The notes beneath the pieces are model-generated. The model did no database searches, was not told where the DNA came from, and was given only the letters and a program-made list of their open reading frames with translations. Shown piece after piece: positions 3,803-19,685 of a stretch of 45,688 bases of DNA. Position 1 is the first letter of the stretch. Each line of letters opens with the position of its first letter. The translations under genes and the position numbers were made by a program. Source of the stretch: Anaerolineales bacterium (GTDB lineage: Bacteria > Chloroflexota > Anaerolineae > Anaerolineales > Villigracilaceae); contig JAEURH010000016.1 in assembly GCA_016789365.1 (NCBI GenBank), positions 1-45,688 of the forward strand. The letters are read 5' to 3'.

Positions 3803-5767
3803 ATGTTGAAAAATAACAAAATTTTACTCTTTGCTATAACGTTGTTTTGGGTTTTCTTAAATTTTTTCTCGTGGCAGGCATGGTTTGCAAAATTTGAAGC
3901 GTTTCGCTTTTTGTTTGCCATGCTTATTTACTTAACCCCAGGCATTCTTACATTTTTACTTTTGTCAGAAGATAAAACCATTTCGCTTCGTTTGCTGGTG
4001 GGTGGGTTTGCCATCAGTTTGTTTGCAACTGGGGTATTTGGCGTTATAGCGCGTGTCTTTCAATTAAATTTTACATTTATTATGTGGGCGTTCGCACTAT
4101 GGGGCATTATTATTTTTTACCTTTATTTTAACAAACCTATTCAAATTCATTTTGATTTTGATAAACCAACTTGGTGGGAAGCCGTTTTGCTTTTTTTGAC
4201 ATTTTCGGCTGTGATGTATTTCGCTTCACTTGTGCGTCAGCCTGTGATTCACGATGATGCATTTACCTACAACGCATTATTGTTTTACTACCAAAATGCC
4301 CCGCAACTTAATTTTGATATGCCTGATGCTTTAAGTAATTTAGAGACGCCTCGTTTTTGGCTGGCATTCTGGCCCCTTGCCGAAGCCATGATTTCTGAAT
4401 TGAGTGCGATAGACGGCTTATTAATCGCAGGTTATTATTTGCCACCATTATTAGCCGTTTTCTCATTTACTGGTGTGTATGTTTTAGCGCGCACTTTAGG
4501 GCTTTCACGCATATTGGCATGTATTGCCATCATTGCACAAGGATTTGGGTTAATGCGGTTAACACTCACCAGCCAATCGGGCAGGCTGTTTTTTTCACGC
4601 ATGACGGAAGATAAAGTGGTTGCCGCTTTTGTGGTTTCATTAATTTTGCTTACACTGGTGGTTGAATATTTATCAAACCCCAATAACCGAAAACTTGTTT
4701 TAATGTGGCTTGTTGCTTGGGCAATGGCGTTTACCCACCCTGTGCAGTTTGGCATGATTTGTATGATTATCGGCTTGTATGGTTTGCCTGCTATATTCAA
4801 AACCGAAACCCGTAGTAAATACATTATTATGATTGTGTTATTAGCGGTAATTACAGTTGTTCCATATTTCTCTCGTTTTGTAGAAGGGGAGAATGCACAA
4901 ACCTTAAGTTTCTCTTTGGAAGATATTGAAGAAAATGATGAATACTTCCGTTTGCGAAGTAACCGCATTGTTATTATTGAAGGCACGCAGTTTTATGGGC
5001 TTGACCCGTATTTAGTGTCTGCTTTGCCGTATCGGATAGGCGCATTAGCCACAGTGGTCAGTTTGTTTTTCTTTTGGCGTAATCAAGTGGCTAGGTATAT
5101 TCTCGCGGCTTTTTTGGTACTAGGCATGGCATACCTTCCATACACAGGCTGGATGGTTGGCATGTTTACCACGCCGTATCAACTCTGGCGGTTGACTTGG
5201 CTTATGCCATTAGGTATTGCTTTTGCGTTTCTGGTTTGGGTTGGTATTGATTTTATCTATAAGATAAAGTGGTTTGACTTGAAAAAAAATTGGTTAAACC
5301 CATTGATATATGTTTCTATAATTAGTTTTTTGTTTGCTTCTATTTTTTACGTTCGTGCATGGACGACAGAAAATTTATTTACAGGCAATATTAATGTGCA
5401 TGATTTTTACACGAACTATGTTAATACTGCGCGGATGATGAATGAATTGGAAGTGGAAAATGGCGCGGTGATTATCGGTGCGCCAGATGTGGCAACGCAT
5501 GGTATTATTCCAAGCCTGACGCTGAAATATGTTCCGCTGGTTTTTCGTGTTGAATCGGGTGGGAATAATACGCAAGTTTGGAATTCGCTCATTGGAGATG
5601 ATATTGCCCCCGATGTGCGTTTAGAACGGTTGAAAGAAAATAATGTTCAATATTTATTGGTGAAAGGTGATTTAGAATGGCTTCAAGTTTTTCTAAATGA
5701 ATATCCAAATAACATTAAGTTCCTCTTTAAAGATCAAAGGCTTTCATTATATAAATTGACGTATTAG
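3803..5767 (+). CDS. Large polytopic membrane protein, GT-C glycosyltransferase-like
   Basis: A 654-residue protein with about twelve hydrophobic segments and a soluble C-terminal part (about 560-654). In the first large outer loop it carries QPVIHDDAFTYNALL (146-160), with His150-Asp151-Asp152; acidic pairs in this loop are typical of GT-C enzymes that take sugars from polyprenyl-phosphate donors. It is divergent from a GT2 enzyme of the type that makes such donors. A ribosome site (AGGA) lies 6 nt before the ATG. It ends in a hairpin terminator. Assignment as a glycosyltransferase is inference from topology and context; I cannot name a family with certainty, and an uncharacterised membrane-protein domain is the alternative. 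Confidence 0.65.
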   Translation: MLKNNKILLFAITLFWVFLNFFSWQAWFAKFEAFRFLFAMLIYLTPGILTFLLLSEDKTISLRLLVGGFAISLFATGVFGVIARVFQLNFTFIMWAFALWGIIIFYLYFNKPIQIHFDFDKPTWWEAVLLFLTFSAVMYFASLVRQPVIHDDAFTYNALLFYYQNAPQLNFDMPDALSNLETPRFWLAFWPLAEAMISELSAIDGLLIAGYYLPPLLAVFSFTGVYVLARTLGLSRILACIAIIAQGFGLMRLTLTSQSGRLFFSRMTEDKVVAAFVVSLILLTLVVEYLSNPNNRKLVLMWLVAWAMAFTHPVQFGMICMIIGLYGLPAIFKTETRSKYIIMIVLLAVITVVPYFSRFVEGENAQTLSFSLEDIEENDEYFRLRSNRIVIIEGTQFYGLDPYLVSALPYRIGALATVVSLFFFWRNQVARYILAAFLVLGMAYLPYTGWMVGMFTTPYQLWRLTWLMPLGIAFAFLVWVGIDFIYKIKWFDLKKNWLNPLIYVSIISFLFASIFYVRAWTTENLFTGNINVHDFYTNYVNTARMMNELEVENGAVIIGAPDVATHGIIPSLTLKYVPLVFRVESGGNNTQVWNSLIGDDIAPDVRLERLKENNVQYLLVKGDLEWLQVFLNEYPNNIKFLFKDQRLSLYKLTY

Positions 5768-11800: not shown

Positions 11801-11920
11801 TGGTCGAGTAGTTGCGAGTGATAACTAGCAACGTATCGAGACCACAAGTGAATAGAATAATTTTTTTATAAAACTGTTGGTTTCGATACGGGCGACCAAG
11901 AACGTCGCCCTACTCAACCA
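11801..11920. repeat. Dispersed palindromic repeat, family B (copy 2)
   Basis: A 120-bp element with ends TGGTCGAGTA (11801-11810) and TACTCAACCA (11911-11920) and inner arms CGTATCGAGACCA and TGGTTTCGATACG. It is the sibling of 7915-8039, also directly before an aminotransferase gene, ending 21 nt before its ATG. Confidence 0.85.
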
Positions 11921-11941
11921 ACGATATATAAAGGAAAATTT

Positions 11942-17417: not shown

Positions 17418-19259
17418 TTATTCTACAGTCACACTTTTTGCTAAATTTCTCGGCTGGTCAACATCTAATCCGCGTGTGGCGGCGATGTGATACGCAAGCA
17501 ACTGCAAAGGCAAAACAGTGATGATGGGGGAGAGCATCCATGGGCATTCTGGAATCCAAATGACATGGTCTGCCATATCTTTAACTAATTCGTCACCTTC
17601 GGTAGCAATGGCTACCACCTTACCACCACGCGCTTTTGCTTGTTGAATTTGAGAAATCATTTTTTCATGCCATGGGTCTTTTGGAGCAATACAAATCACA
17701 GGCATTTCTTCATCAATCAAAGCAATCGGTCCATGTTTCATTTCGCCTGCTGGATACCCTTCAGCATGAATGTATGAAATTTCTTTTAACTTTAATGCAC
17801 CTTCATAAGCAATCGGCATGTTGATTCCACGACCAAGATATAAACACCCTTTGATATCTTTTAGGGCTTGAGCAACTTTCTCAACTTGAGATTCTGCGTC
17901 TAGCGCACGACCTGCTAAATCAGGAACGAGGCGCAAATCAGAGACAAGTTGTTTGCGAGTCTTATCATCAATCACGCCGCGCATATCTGCAAGTAAAATC
18001 GCAAGCATGTATTGGTCAACCAGCGGAGCAGTAAATGCTTTTGTAGATGCCACGCCAATTTCAGGACCTGTTTGCATGGCAATATACCCATCAGCAACAC
18101 GCATGGCTTGCGAACCAACCGCATTGACAATACTCCACACAATGCCACCTTTGCGTTTGCCTTCTTCCATGGCGGCGAGCGTATCCGCAGTTTCGCCAGA
18201 TTGTGAAATGGCAAGCACCACTGTATTTTCATCCACGATAGGGTCACTGTAGCGGAATTCAGAACCAATTACCACTTCCACTGGGATGCGGGCGATTTTT
18301 TCAATCAAATATTTTCCGACCATGCCAGCATAGGCGGCAGTACCACAAGCAGTGATGTAAATTCTTTGTATTCGTTTTGCAAGTTCAGGAGTTAATTTTA
18401 ATTCGGGTAAACGAATCCGCCCTTCTTTGAAATCCACACGTCCAGCCAGTGTATCAGTGAGTGCACGAACCTGCTCGTGAATTTCTTTCTGCATAAAATG
18501 GCGATATTCACCTTTTTCAGCAGAAACAGCATCCCAATTGATAGTATGAATTTCAGGTTTAATTTCAACACCATCTAACGTTTCAATACGAACACTGTCA
18601 CGAGTCACAATCGCCATTTGTTTTGACTCAAGAAAAATCACTTTGCGCGTGTGTTCAAGAATTGCGGGAATGTCAGAAGCAATATAGTTTTCATTTTCGC
18701 CCAACCCAATCACAACGCCACCTGCATTGCCAATTCGTGCAGTCACAATTTTATCTGGCTCATCCGTAGACATTAACAAAACAACATTAGCACCTTCAAT
18801 TTGTTTGAAAGTTCTTCGTGCCGCTTCTGTAAATGAAACTCCCGCCGCATGATGATGTTCTGCTAAATGCACAATCGTTTCAGTATCAGTATCCGAATTA
18901 AATACAACACCTTCACTACTTAATTCATCTTTTAATTCAAGAAAATTTTCAACAATGCCGTTGTGAACCACAACAGTTTTTCCTGAATTACCAACATGCG
19001 GATGCGAATTTCTTGCCGATGGCGCACCATGCGTCGCCCAGCGTGTATGCCCAATCCCGGGCGCACCATTCAATGGGCTTTTATTTACCAAATCCACCAA
19101 TTGCGATAACTTGCCCGCATCTTTTCGTACATCAATTTGCCCACCATTCATCACAGCAATACCTGCTGAGTCATAACCACGATATTCCAGCCGTTTCAAG
19201 CCGTTGAGAATAATCGGCGTCGCATCACGCGAGCCGAGATAACCGACGATTCCACACAT
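17418..19259 (-). CDS. glmS: Glutamine--fructose-6-phosphate aminotransferase
   Basis: A 613-residue enzyme making glucosamine-6-phosphate for the cell envelope. After Met1 comes the N-terminal nucleophile Cys2 (MCGIVGYLGS), then the glutaminase domain (RGYDSAGIAV, HTRWATHG, HNGIVENF) and two SIS domains (ACGTAAYAG, AISQSGETADT, and YPAGEMKHGPIALID) ending with PRNLAKSVTVE, the usual C-terminus. The frame is open 78 nt further upstream, but Cys2 must be exposed, and GGAGG lies 7 nt before ATG 19259, so this start is secure. Expression is almost certainly controlled by the glmS ribozyme in its leader. Confidence 0.97.
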   Translation of the reverse strand: MCGIVGYLGSRDATPIILNGLKRLEYRGYDSAGIAVMNGGQIDVRKDAGKLSQLVDLVNKSPLNGAPGIGHTRWATHGAPSARNSHPHVGNSGKTVVVHNGIVENFLELKDELSSEGVVFNSDTDTETIVHLAEHHHAAGVSFTEAARRTFKQIEGANVVLLMSTDEPDKIVTARIGNAGGVVIGLGENENYIASDIPAILEHTRKVIFLESKQMAIVTRDSVRIETLDGVEIKPEIHTINWDAVSAEKGEYRHFMQKEIHEQVRALTDTLAGRVDFKEGRIRLPELKLTPELAKRIQRIYITACGTAAYAGMVGKYLIEKIARIPVEVVIGSEFRYSDPIVDENTVVLAISQSGETADTLAAMEEGKRKGGIVWSIVNAVGSQAMRVADGYIAMQTGPEIGVASTKAFTAPLVDQYMLAILLADMRGVIDDKTRKQLVSDLRLVPDLAGRALDAESQVEKVAQALKDIKGCLYLGRGINMPIAYEGALKLKEISYIHAEGYPAGEMKHGPIALIDEEMPVICIAPKDPWHEKMISQIQQAKARGGKVVAIATEGDELVKDMADHVIWIPECPWMLSPIITVLPLQLLAYHIAATRGLDVDQPRNLAKSVTVE

Positions 19260-19349
19260 AGGGGAGCCTCCAATTTTGATTTTAGATATGGATACAAAAC
19301 CATGCGCCTCATTCTTAACTGACGCTTGATTCTGCACTTCAAATTTTTA

Positions 19350-19588
19350 CCATCCTCTGCATTTTGCTCTCACAATCACTTGCGAGGTTTGTCTGCAAAG
19401 TTTTTTCTTGGAGGGAAAGATATTGGATAATGGCATATCCAGAGGGCTTCCGCTGAACTTTCGATTTTCTTTTTTGCTGGTTGCGTGTTGCGAAGCAACG
19501 TATCGAAACAACAAAAAATTAACTCTATTGTGAAATAGAGAACCCTCGTCCTCGTCAACTTTGATTTTTACATCAAAGCCCATGCGCT
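19350..19588 (-). ncRNA. glmS self-cleaving ribozyme with an enlarged core
   Basis: On the minus strand upstream of glmS the ribozyme landmarks occur in order. The cleavage site A|GCGC lies between 19588 and 19587. P1 is CTTTGAT/ATCAAAG, followed by GTTGACGAGG (19559-19550). P2 pairs GAGGG (19547-19543) with CCCTC (19446-19442). The core ATCGA (19465-19461) leads to TTCAGCGG (19457-19450). P3 is TGGATA/TATCCA. A P4-like arm is formed by CTTTGCA/TGCAGAG with an inner stem CTCGCAA/TTGTGAG. Glucosamine-6-phosphate is the known cofactor of this class. Unusually, about 77 nt replace the normal 3-4 nt between the P2 5' strand and ATCGA; this insert has its own hairpin (19540-19523) and a half-copy of repeat family B. 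The 3' end given is approximate. Confidence 0.88.
19478..19512. repeat. Half-copy of dispersed repeat family B inside the ribozyme
   Basis: The plus strand reads TGGTTGCGTGTTGCGAAG followed by CAACGTATCGAAACAA, which resembles one arm of the family B elements at 7915-8039 and 11801-11920 (shared GCAACGTATCGA core). It lies wholly within the insertion in the glmS ribozyme core. Confidence 0.65.
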
Positions 19589-19639
19589 GTCTTTCCCGTT
19601 ATTAAATTTTTCCGTGAGCCTCCTTCATAAGTAAGCAAA

Positions 19640-19645: not shown

Positions 19646-19652
19646 CCGTAAA

Positions 19653-19680
19653 AAATCCCCGCTATTTGGCGGGGATTTCT
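19653..19680 (-). terminator. Intrinsic terminator of the Tad operon
   Basis: The stem TCCCCGC/GCGGGGA with a 6-nt loop is followed on the minus strand by TTTTTT. It lies directly after the stop of the last TadE-like gene and isolates the Tad operon from glmS. Confidence 0.85.
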
Positions 19681-19685
19681 TATTA

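Follow-up and report, generated by a model that had tools for sequence, protein, structure and literature searches.

A glmS ribozyme upstream of glmS

The window, that is, the whole 45,688-nucleotide stretch of DNA analysed here, gave two Rfam matches, a glmS ribozyme (RF00234) among them. The ribozyme lies on the minus strand at 19345..19599, where cmscan aligned it over its full length from P1 to P4 (model positions 1-167; 52.8 bits against a gathering cut-off of 37; E = 1.7e-9), omitting 84 residues at a place where the model has 10. Downstream on the same strand is glmS. Its open reading frame as listed spans 17418-19337 from a GTG; we chose the internal ATG at 19259 as the start, which gives a 613-amino-acid protein beginning MCGIVGYLG (17418..19259, minus strand) and places the ATG about 85 nt past the end of the RF00234 match. 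An earlier note, made from the letters alone, had proposed a minus-strand glmS ribozyme here, and both the RF00234 search and the position upstream of glmS bore this out. Elsewhere in the window is a T-box leader (RF00230; 33705-33973, plus strand; 100.5 bits).

Helix names and numbering follow PMC11602151 and PMC7125110, passages of which describe P2.1 as CGA paired with the UCG of AUCGA, and P2.2 as nucleotides 3′ of the cleavage site paired with the GCGG strand. Read by hand along the minus strand, the window RNA presents, in order, the predicted cleavage site A(-1)/G(1) between A19588 and G19587 (19587..19588; placed by its AGCGC context and the RF00234 alignment), P1, GACGAGG, P2 (GAGGGTT / AGCCCTC), ATCGA, CAGCGG, P3 and P4. 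The A and G of the cleavage site are followed by GCG, and the double pseudoknot can be read from the sequence: CGA within GACGAGG (19552..19554) forms the 5′ strand of P2.1 and pairs with the UCG of ATCGA (19461..19465) through three pairs that are invariant in relatives, and CAGCG (19451..19455) forms the 3′ strand of P2.2, with C19586, G19585, C19584, U19582 and G19581 as partners. The 5′ strand of P2 (19541..19547) pairs with 19448-19442, and the P3/P4 domain, with its purine-rich internal loop and tetraloop, was aligned by RF00234. The ribozyme region folded better than all 200 of 200 dinucleotide shuffles (z = -4.32).

By sequence and structure, then, the window RNA is a glmS ribozyme. 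Since it retains P2.1, P2.2, P3 and P4, the glmS leader is expected to cleave itself in a GlcN6P-dependent manner, and regulation of glmS would follow from this. Given a TATAAT at 19645-19640 (minus strand), read from the sequence just 5′ of the ribozyme, the glmS leader would start about 45 nt 5′ of the cleavage site. A terminator-like inverted repeat at 19649-19682 also lies just upstream of the ribozyme.

Two additional helices in J2/2.1

Between the 5′ strand of P2 and ATCGA, the 3′ strand of P2.1, the window has 75 nt. Under the pairing scheme given in the cited passages, this segment therefore falls in J2/2.1, directly 5′ of a strand that helps to form the cofactor pocket; the earlier note had correctly placed an extra segment in the core junction right before ATCGA. 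A short J2/2.1 is usual for RF00234 members, although not strictly defining. The 75 nt consist of an 18-nt hairpin, helix A (CTCTATTTCACAATAGAG; 19523..19540, minus strand, 5′ end at 19540), a TTAA linker (19519..19522, minus strand; consensus NYAA), a 49-nt hairpin, helix B (19470..19518, minus strand, 5′ end at 19518), which contains GTTTCGATACGTTGCTTCGCAAC, and GAAA.

RF00234 matched 46 of 61 relatives, 36 of 57 genomes of the same genus and 125 of 400 genomes of the phylum. We parsed 127 loci, a non-random set of best matches and hand-picked places, of which 106 gave a core and 21 did not. Among these 106 Chloroflexota loci, J2/2.1 measured 0-4 nt in 31, 21 nt in 1 and 40-108 nt in 74. The 31 short copies are all labelled merely as same phylum, and the long form was found in all parsed loci that share the window's genus, family, order or class except L032, a member of the order whose 21 nt form a single hairpin. 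It also extends to other families of the phylum, such as f36 and f72 (L086, L090, L121, L128 and L129), and, among the matches listed, to metagenome-assembled genomes (MAGs) of Anaerolinea, Bellilinea, Levilinea, Caldilineaceae, Thermoflexales and Oscillochloris. A pattern scan of contigs returned at least 120 loci, of which 80 were read; many of the listed matches outside Chloroflexota were without ribozyme features. The core of L043 (G017, in the window's genus) is identical to that of L232 from isolate CFX11. Two-helix glmS ribozymes were also seen in MAGs named as other phyla, L210 (Spirochaetaceae) and L245 (Paludibacter), which are possibly Chloroflexota contigs in mixed bins.

Covariation was assessed with anchors that are independent of the pairing (after GGTT, before NYAA and before GAAA). 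The junction regex matched 119 of 207 loci, the rest being dropped; 118 had the linker and 113 junctions were distinct. Across these 113, 91.5% of cells were paired in helix A and 88.1% in helix B, compared with 36-55% with the strands slid out of register by 1-2 nt. Individually, all 13 basal pairs of the two helices scored above the highest of 500 shuffles. The loop of helix A is UCAC in the window and GCGA or GCAA in 63 of the 118 junctions. Alignment A1 (MAFFT), which holds 51 of 69 eligible short-B sequences and not the window itself, showed two-sided changes at 7/7 pairs of helix A and 6/6 pairs of helix B. For the whole structure the covariation score was 0.594, against 0.193 for shuffled and 0.08-0.16 for slid versions, and 93.8% of cells were paired against 33-47% when slid; the number of pairs with two-sided changes, 23 against 21.0 in shuffles (43/500 as high), was hardly beyond shuffles. 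P2.1 was invariant in 51/51 of the A1 relatives, P2.2 was 95.3% paired, and the pairs of P2 were compensated.

The two extra helices of J2/2.1 thus belong to the ribozyme architecture of this clade. The earlier note had instead read the segment as an insertion of roughly 77 nt, partly a mobile repeat, in a catalytic core that is standard in all else. In favour of that reading, the repeat does exist, and no such segment is found in the 31 canonical copies parsed. In its one-off form this explanation is refuted by relatives that have both helices: 74 of the 106 parsed loci carry at least 40 nt here, helices A and B covary across the clade, and close relatives retain helix A with other content in B, so that a recent insertion is extremely improbable. 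The segment is repeat in part, as that note said, but the repeat fills helix B alone, in place of a hairpin that relatives also have with other content. Its suggestion that the core tolerates an insert at this point finds its support in conservation and would hold to that extent.

The two helices differ in how their lengths vary. In the 36 same-genus copies measured (a 37th, L049, has no standard linker and lies outside this set), helix A was always 18-19 nt, and 18 nt in 34, while helix B was 16-25 nt in 15, 32 nt in 1 and 38-61 nt in 20. The 20 long B helices might be taken as a sign of a decaying ribozyme in which constraint has relaxed and repeats accumulate. Decay is nevertheless very improbable, given the constant size of helix A in these copies and, in the 51 relatives of A1, the invariant pairs of P2.1 and the compensated pairs of P2.

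Extra stems in the glmS catalytic core have a reported precedent, as McCown, Roth and Breaker are said to have described such stems in Deinococcus-Thermus in 2011. The Chloroflexota form would have this in common with those variants and differs in phylum; dispersed repeats in a stem are not known to be part of the description of the Deinococcus-Thermus variants. Our own search for Deinococcota glmS ribozymes for comparison gave just a 25-base match at chance level; GlmS matches occurred in 19 Deinococcus plasmid records, none among the 60 matches listed.

Dispersed palindromes inside helix B

Dispersed repeats were found in helix B and not in helix A; in the genus, palindromes of unrelated families often occupy the long B helices. 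The window's helix B holds a degenerate copy (19479..19512, minus strand; it fails the strict pattern) of a palindrome, here T, of the form TTTCGATACG..CTTCG..CTCAACC, which also occurs inside B of L051, L054 and L140 and, by eye, inverted in L095 and L142. A second palindrome, C (CCCTCTCC..GGAGAGGG..GTGAGG), is present in plus orientation in L035 and L047 and inverted (minus) in L046, with degenerate copies recognised by eye in L049, L058, L096 and L138. Two families, T and C, thus occur inside B in both orientations. Further content comprises an ACCCTAA/TTAGGGT palindrome in L059 and, from another family, GACCTCACAGGTC in L155; this sequence has 10 sites in G039, one of them in helix B, and a 37-mer of the L155 helix B recurs at 2 other G039 sites. 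Among the long B helices, those of L048, L056 and L141 have content that was not recognised as dispersed.

T-like copies occur at 8 other places in the window's own genome at E <= 0.002, in agreement with the hairpin and dispersed-repeat part that the earlier note had seen in the segment. The window itself has a second copy of the TTTCGATACG palindrome family at 11876..11922 (plus strand; matches at 11881 and 11910). Under strict patterns, T has 3 copies in the own genome, 0 of them in the ribozyme, and is present in 27/57 genus genomes; C has 89 copies in the own genome and is present in 51/57; and ACCCTAA.GGTTT is present in 43/57, the own genome being without it. Reversed patterns of T and C, used as a control, gave 0 matches in 57/57 genus genomes, and the reversed controls of the ACCCTAA.GGTTT and GACCTCACAGGTC patterns likewise gave 0. 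In 7/37 ribozymes of the genus, strict copies lie in helix B (the T copy of the window, being degenerate, is not counted), against 0.02 expected genome-wide or 0.16 if copies were confined to an assumed 12% share; because the patterns were derived from helix B itself, this comparison is descriptive and no unbiased test.

The content of B differs even among close relatives. Between the window and L035, L047 and L048, the flanks of B are 87-90% identical, whereas identity within B itself is 32-55%, against a random mean of 46% and a random maximum of 58%. On a GlmS tree of 42 rows (7 of 49 loci were too short and were left out), forward T, in 4 rows, needs 4 changes, and C, in 6 rows, needs 6. 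All 8 T-like copies outside the window are followed by TCGCAAT, and 7 of the 8 are preceded by GATTGCTTC (by eye); these flanks are the ends of another palindrome. The T palindrome also occurs in P1 of L351 and L361. Its location within another palindrome and in P1 suggests a preference for hairpins. A Y1 transposase family (PF01797) was found in 55/57 genus genomes, with 5 matches in the own genome.

We interpret these observations as follows, with a probability of roughly 0.87: the window RNA is a glmS ribozyme with an architecture found in Chloroflexota, in which J2/2.1, 0-4 nt in canonical copies, carries a helix A whose size is conserved and a helix B that is open-ended and serves as a socket for palindromes. 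Helix B is probably directed out of the core and would need just a closed base; it could therefore act as a socket where palindromes are repeatedly accepted and replaced, and since a palindrome forms a hairpin in either orientation, the core would survive the swap. In the window the socket would hold the degenerate TTTCGATACG-type palindrome. The activity of the ribozyme, the direction in which helix B leaves the core and the route by which palindromes enter are the parts of this interpretation that we infer.

The content of B might instead be functional, with the palindrome tuning the ribozyme. UUUCGAU of the T palindrome is an exact 7-nt complement of AUCGAAA in the core and could compete for this P2.1 strand; the nested minimum free energy (MFE) structure, in which the two are mispaired, reaches -74.6 kcal/mol, compared with -71.9 kcal/mol when AUCGAA is kept free. 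By this preference of 2.7 kcal/mol the window copy could be impaired, although neither the pseudoknot nor tertiary contacts enter into nested folding. Content that differs among close relatives and also occurs inverted is ill-suited to a conserved function, and we consider tuning by B unlikely. Small dispersed bacterial palindromes of the REP or MITE type (PMC2229807 and PMC10969869, in the portions covered) are likewise short, palindromic, multi-copy and found in both orientations; here the palindromes lie inside a ribozyme helix, replacing its own hairpin. If the socket reading is true, it would be a clear case of dispersed palindromes living within a catalytic RNA, and helix B would offer a natural insertion point for engineering. 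It also suggests that, in a well-studied ribozyme, the junction beside the strand of the cofactor pocket can be remodelled to hold two helices, and that one of these is free to be exchanged.

Paralogues upstream of glnA and glutamate synthase genes

For wider searches we used R1, a model of the two-helix form with 51 training sequences, 5 of which are glnA-linked or alike (L115, L176, L177, L182 and L223); the genus paralogues described below were not included. R1 matched the window at 19437-19590 (minus strand) with 103.3 bits. It matched 54/57 genus genomes, often twice per genome, among them 32/32 of the genomes with completeness of 90% or more and contamination of 5% or less. In the phylum it matched 119/400 genomes, some of these matches being canonical forms that score lower. 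A second match in the own genome, at G000:C67:2433-2573 (L350), scored 46.3 bits, and the helix B of this RNA holds the CCCTCTCC palindrome. When 20 such places were fetched, 15 lay before an AraC-MGMT (ada-like) gene, 1 directly before glnA (L368) and 1 before a glutamate synthase gene (L366), and 3 were glmS leaders (L359, L360 and L369).

Two-helix RNAs of the glmS type stand before glnA, or before an ada-eamA-(glnA) row, in L350-L358, L361-L365, L367, L368, L176, L182 and L223, and the paralogues at glnA or the ada-eamA-glnA row begin AGCG[G/A]CUG. The strict form of this start occurs at 31 loci, a set that leaves out L352 and L361: 15 are directly before glnA (16 if L117 is counted), 14 are before the AraC-MGMT gene, 11 of these with glnA further on, L177 ends too early, and L291 is a glmS leader. 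In the own genome glnA itself is unseen because L350, like L307 and L367, ends before it. When 166 distinct cores were sorted on the motif of the gene downstream, 133 were initially assigned to class I. Of these, 106 precede glmS by motif and 6 more by reading, 2 lie before glutamate synthase (L196 and L366) and 1 is of the ada type (L352); the remaining 18 have less than 1500 nt and no motif, and L282, the only one read, is glmS.

Short motifs served to call glnA, ada and eamA, and Pfam confirmed the calls at L353 (MGMT/HTH_18, EamA and glutamine synthetase) and at L368 (glutamine synthetase). Downstream of L366 (G154:C114:37987-38111), Pfam identified Glu_synthase, and the gene after it gave a borderline match to GATase_6; the protein downstream of L196 (about 4858-5080) was judged glutamate synthase-like by eye. 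RF00234 scored the glnA-linked RNAs of L176, L111, L112 and L113 above its cut-off of 37 (43.8, 42.9, 47.7 and 46.6 bits, respectively) and L196 below it (35.7 bits); at E <= 0.01 it gave no glmS match for L182, L350, L353, L362, L366 or L368. In the AGCG[G/A]CUG form, shifting a bulge (GCGC-A-UG to GCG-G-CUG) can let P2.2 persist; P3, the purine-rich P4 loop and a GNRA-like L4 can be made out by eye.

The P1 of copies at the glnA row seems to host dispersed repeats too, T in L351 and L361 and a CTCGCAATGAC-type repeat in L350. At L362, a 6S RNA (RF00013; 4383-4208, minus strand; 71.5 bits) lies shortly upstream of the two-helix RNA of the ada-eamA-glnA row, on the same strand.

A single regulon was considered because of the glutamine theme, glmS and glutamate synthase being users of glutamine and glnA its maker. 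We hold it about evenly balanced whether the Anaerolineae glmS ribozyme is a multi-gene regulator of the glutamine cycle. Its paralogues would then respond to an amine metabolite, either GlcN6P or a related compound, and cut the leaders of glmS, glnA and glutamate synthase, and one J2/2.1 helix would be a permanent socket for mobile palindromes that seek hairpins and are swapped between close species. Compared with the Firmicutes type of RF00234 (T. tengcongensis, B. anthracis and B. subtilis), the cleavage site, P1, P2, P2.1, P2.2, P3, P4 and the place upstream of glmS are common, whereas the Chloroflexota form has two covarying J2/2.1 helices instead of 0-4 nt, a possible long-range helix P0 with the 5′ flank, and paralogues before glnA and glutamate synthase.

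In the 2011 survey by McCown et al., "all but two" of 463 glmS ribozymes reportedly lay in glmS mRNAs. As far as we know, and leaving that survey aside, the paralogues linked to glnA and glutamate synthase would be the first broad regulon of glmS-type ribozymes beyond glmS, and would allow a direct test of whether GlcN6P is still their ligand. Our literature search, with most subscription papers and the 2011 survey outside its scope, found no report of the Chloroflexota two-helix form or of glnA-linked glmS ribozymes, and the portions of PMC11602151, PMC7125110, PMC2258182 and PMC3766115 covered yielded nothing on Chloroflexota glmS variants or glnA-linked glmS ribozymes.

Long-range pairings with J3/4

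Just 5′ of the cleavage site, GGGAAAGA (19590..19597, minus strand) is the complement of TCTTTCCC in J3/4 (19413..19420, minus strand), and the two strands pair in the MFE structure as a possible helix P0. The 5′ flank and J3/4 can form a helix of at least 7 bp in 101/133 class I copies, compared with 151/665 with shuffled flanks, but in only 12/32 class II copies, compared with 31/160; in class II the commonest pair is GGAGA/UCUCC. This complementarity makes P0 a likely further clade-specific helix in class I. We also considered a second helix, in which the Shine-Dalgarno sequence of glmS (UUGGAGG) would pair with the 3′ half of J3/4, a stretch that reads CCUCCAA in the window. This helix reached at least 7 bp in 64/113 glmS-linked copies; it is not established because 238/565 cross-pairings and 114/565 shuffles also did so. 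In ada- and glnA-linked copies (e.g. L350, L351, L356 and L368), a CCCUUCC in J3/4 is complementary to a downstream GGAAGGG, which in several such copies of the genus is followed by CGTTTCTTTTTAATA and resembles a terminator.
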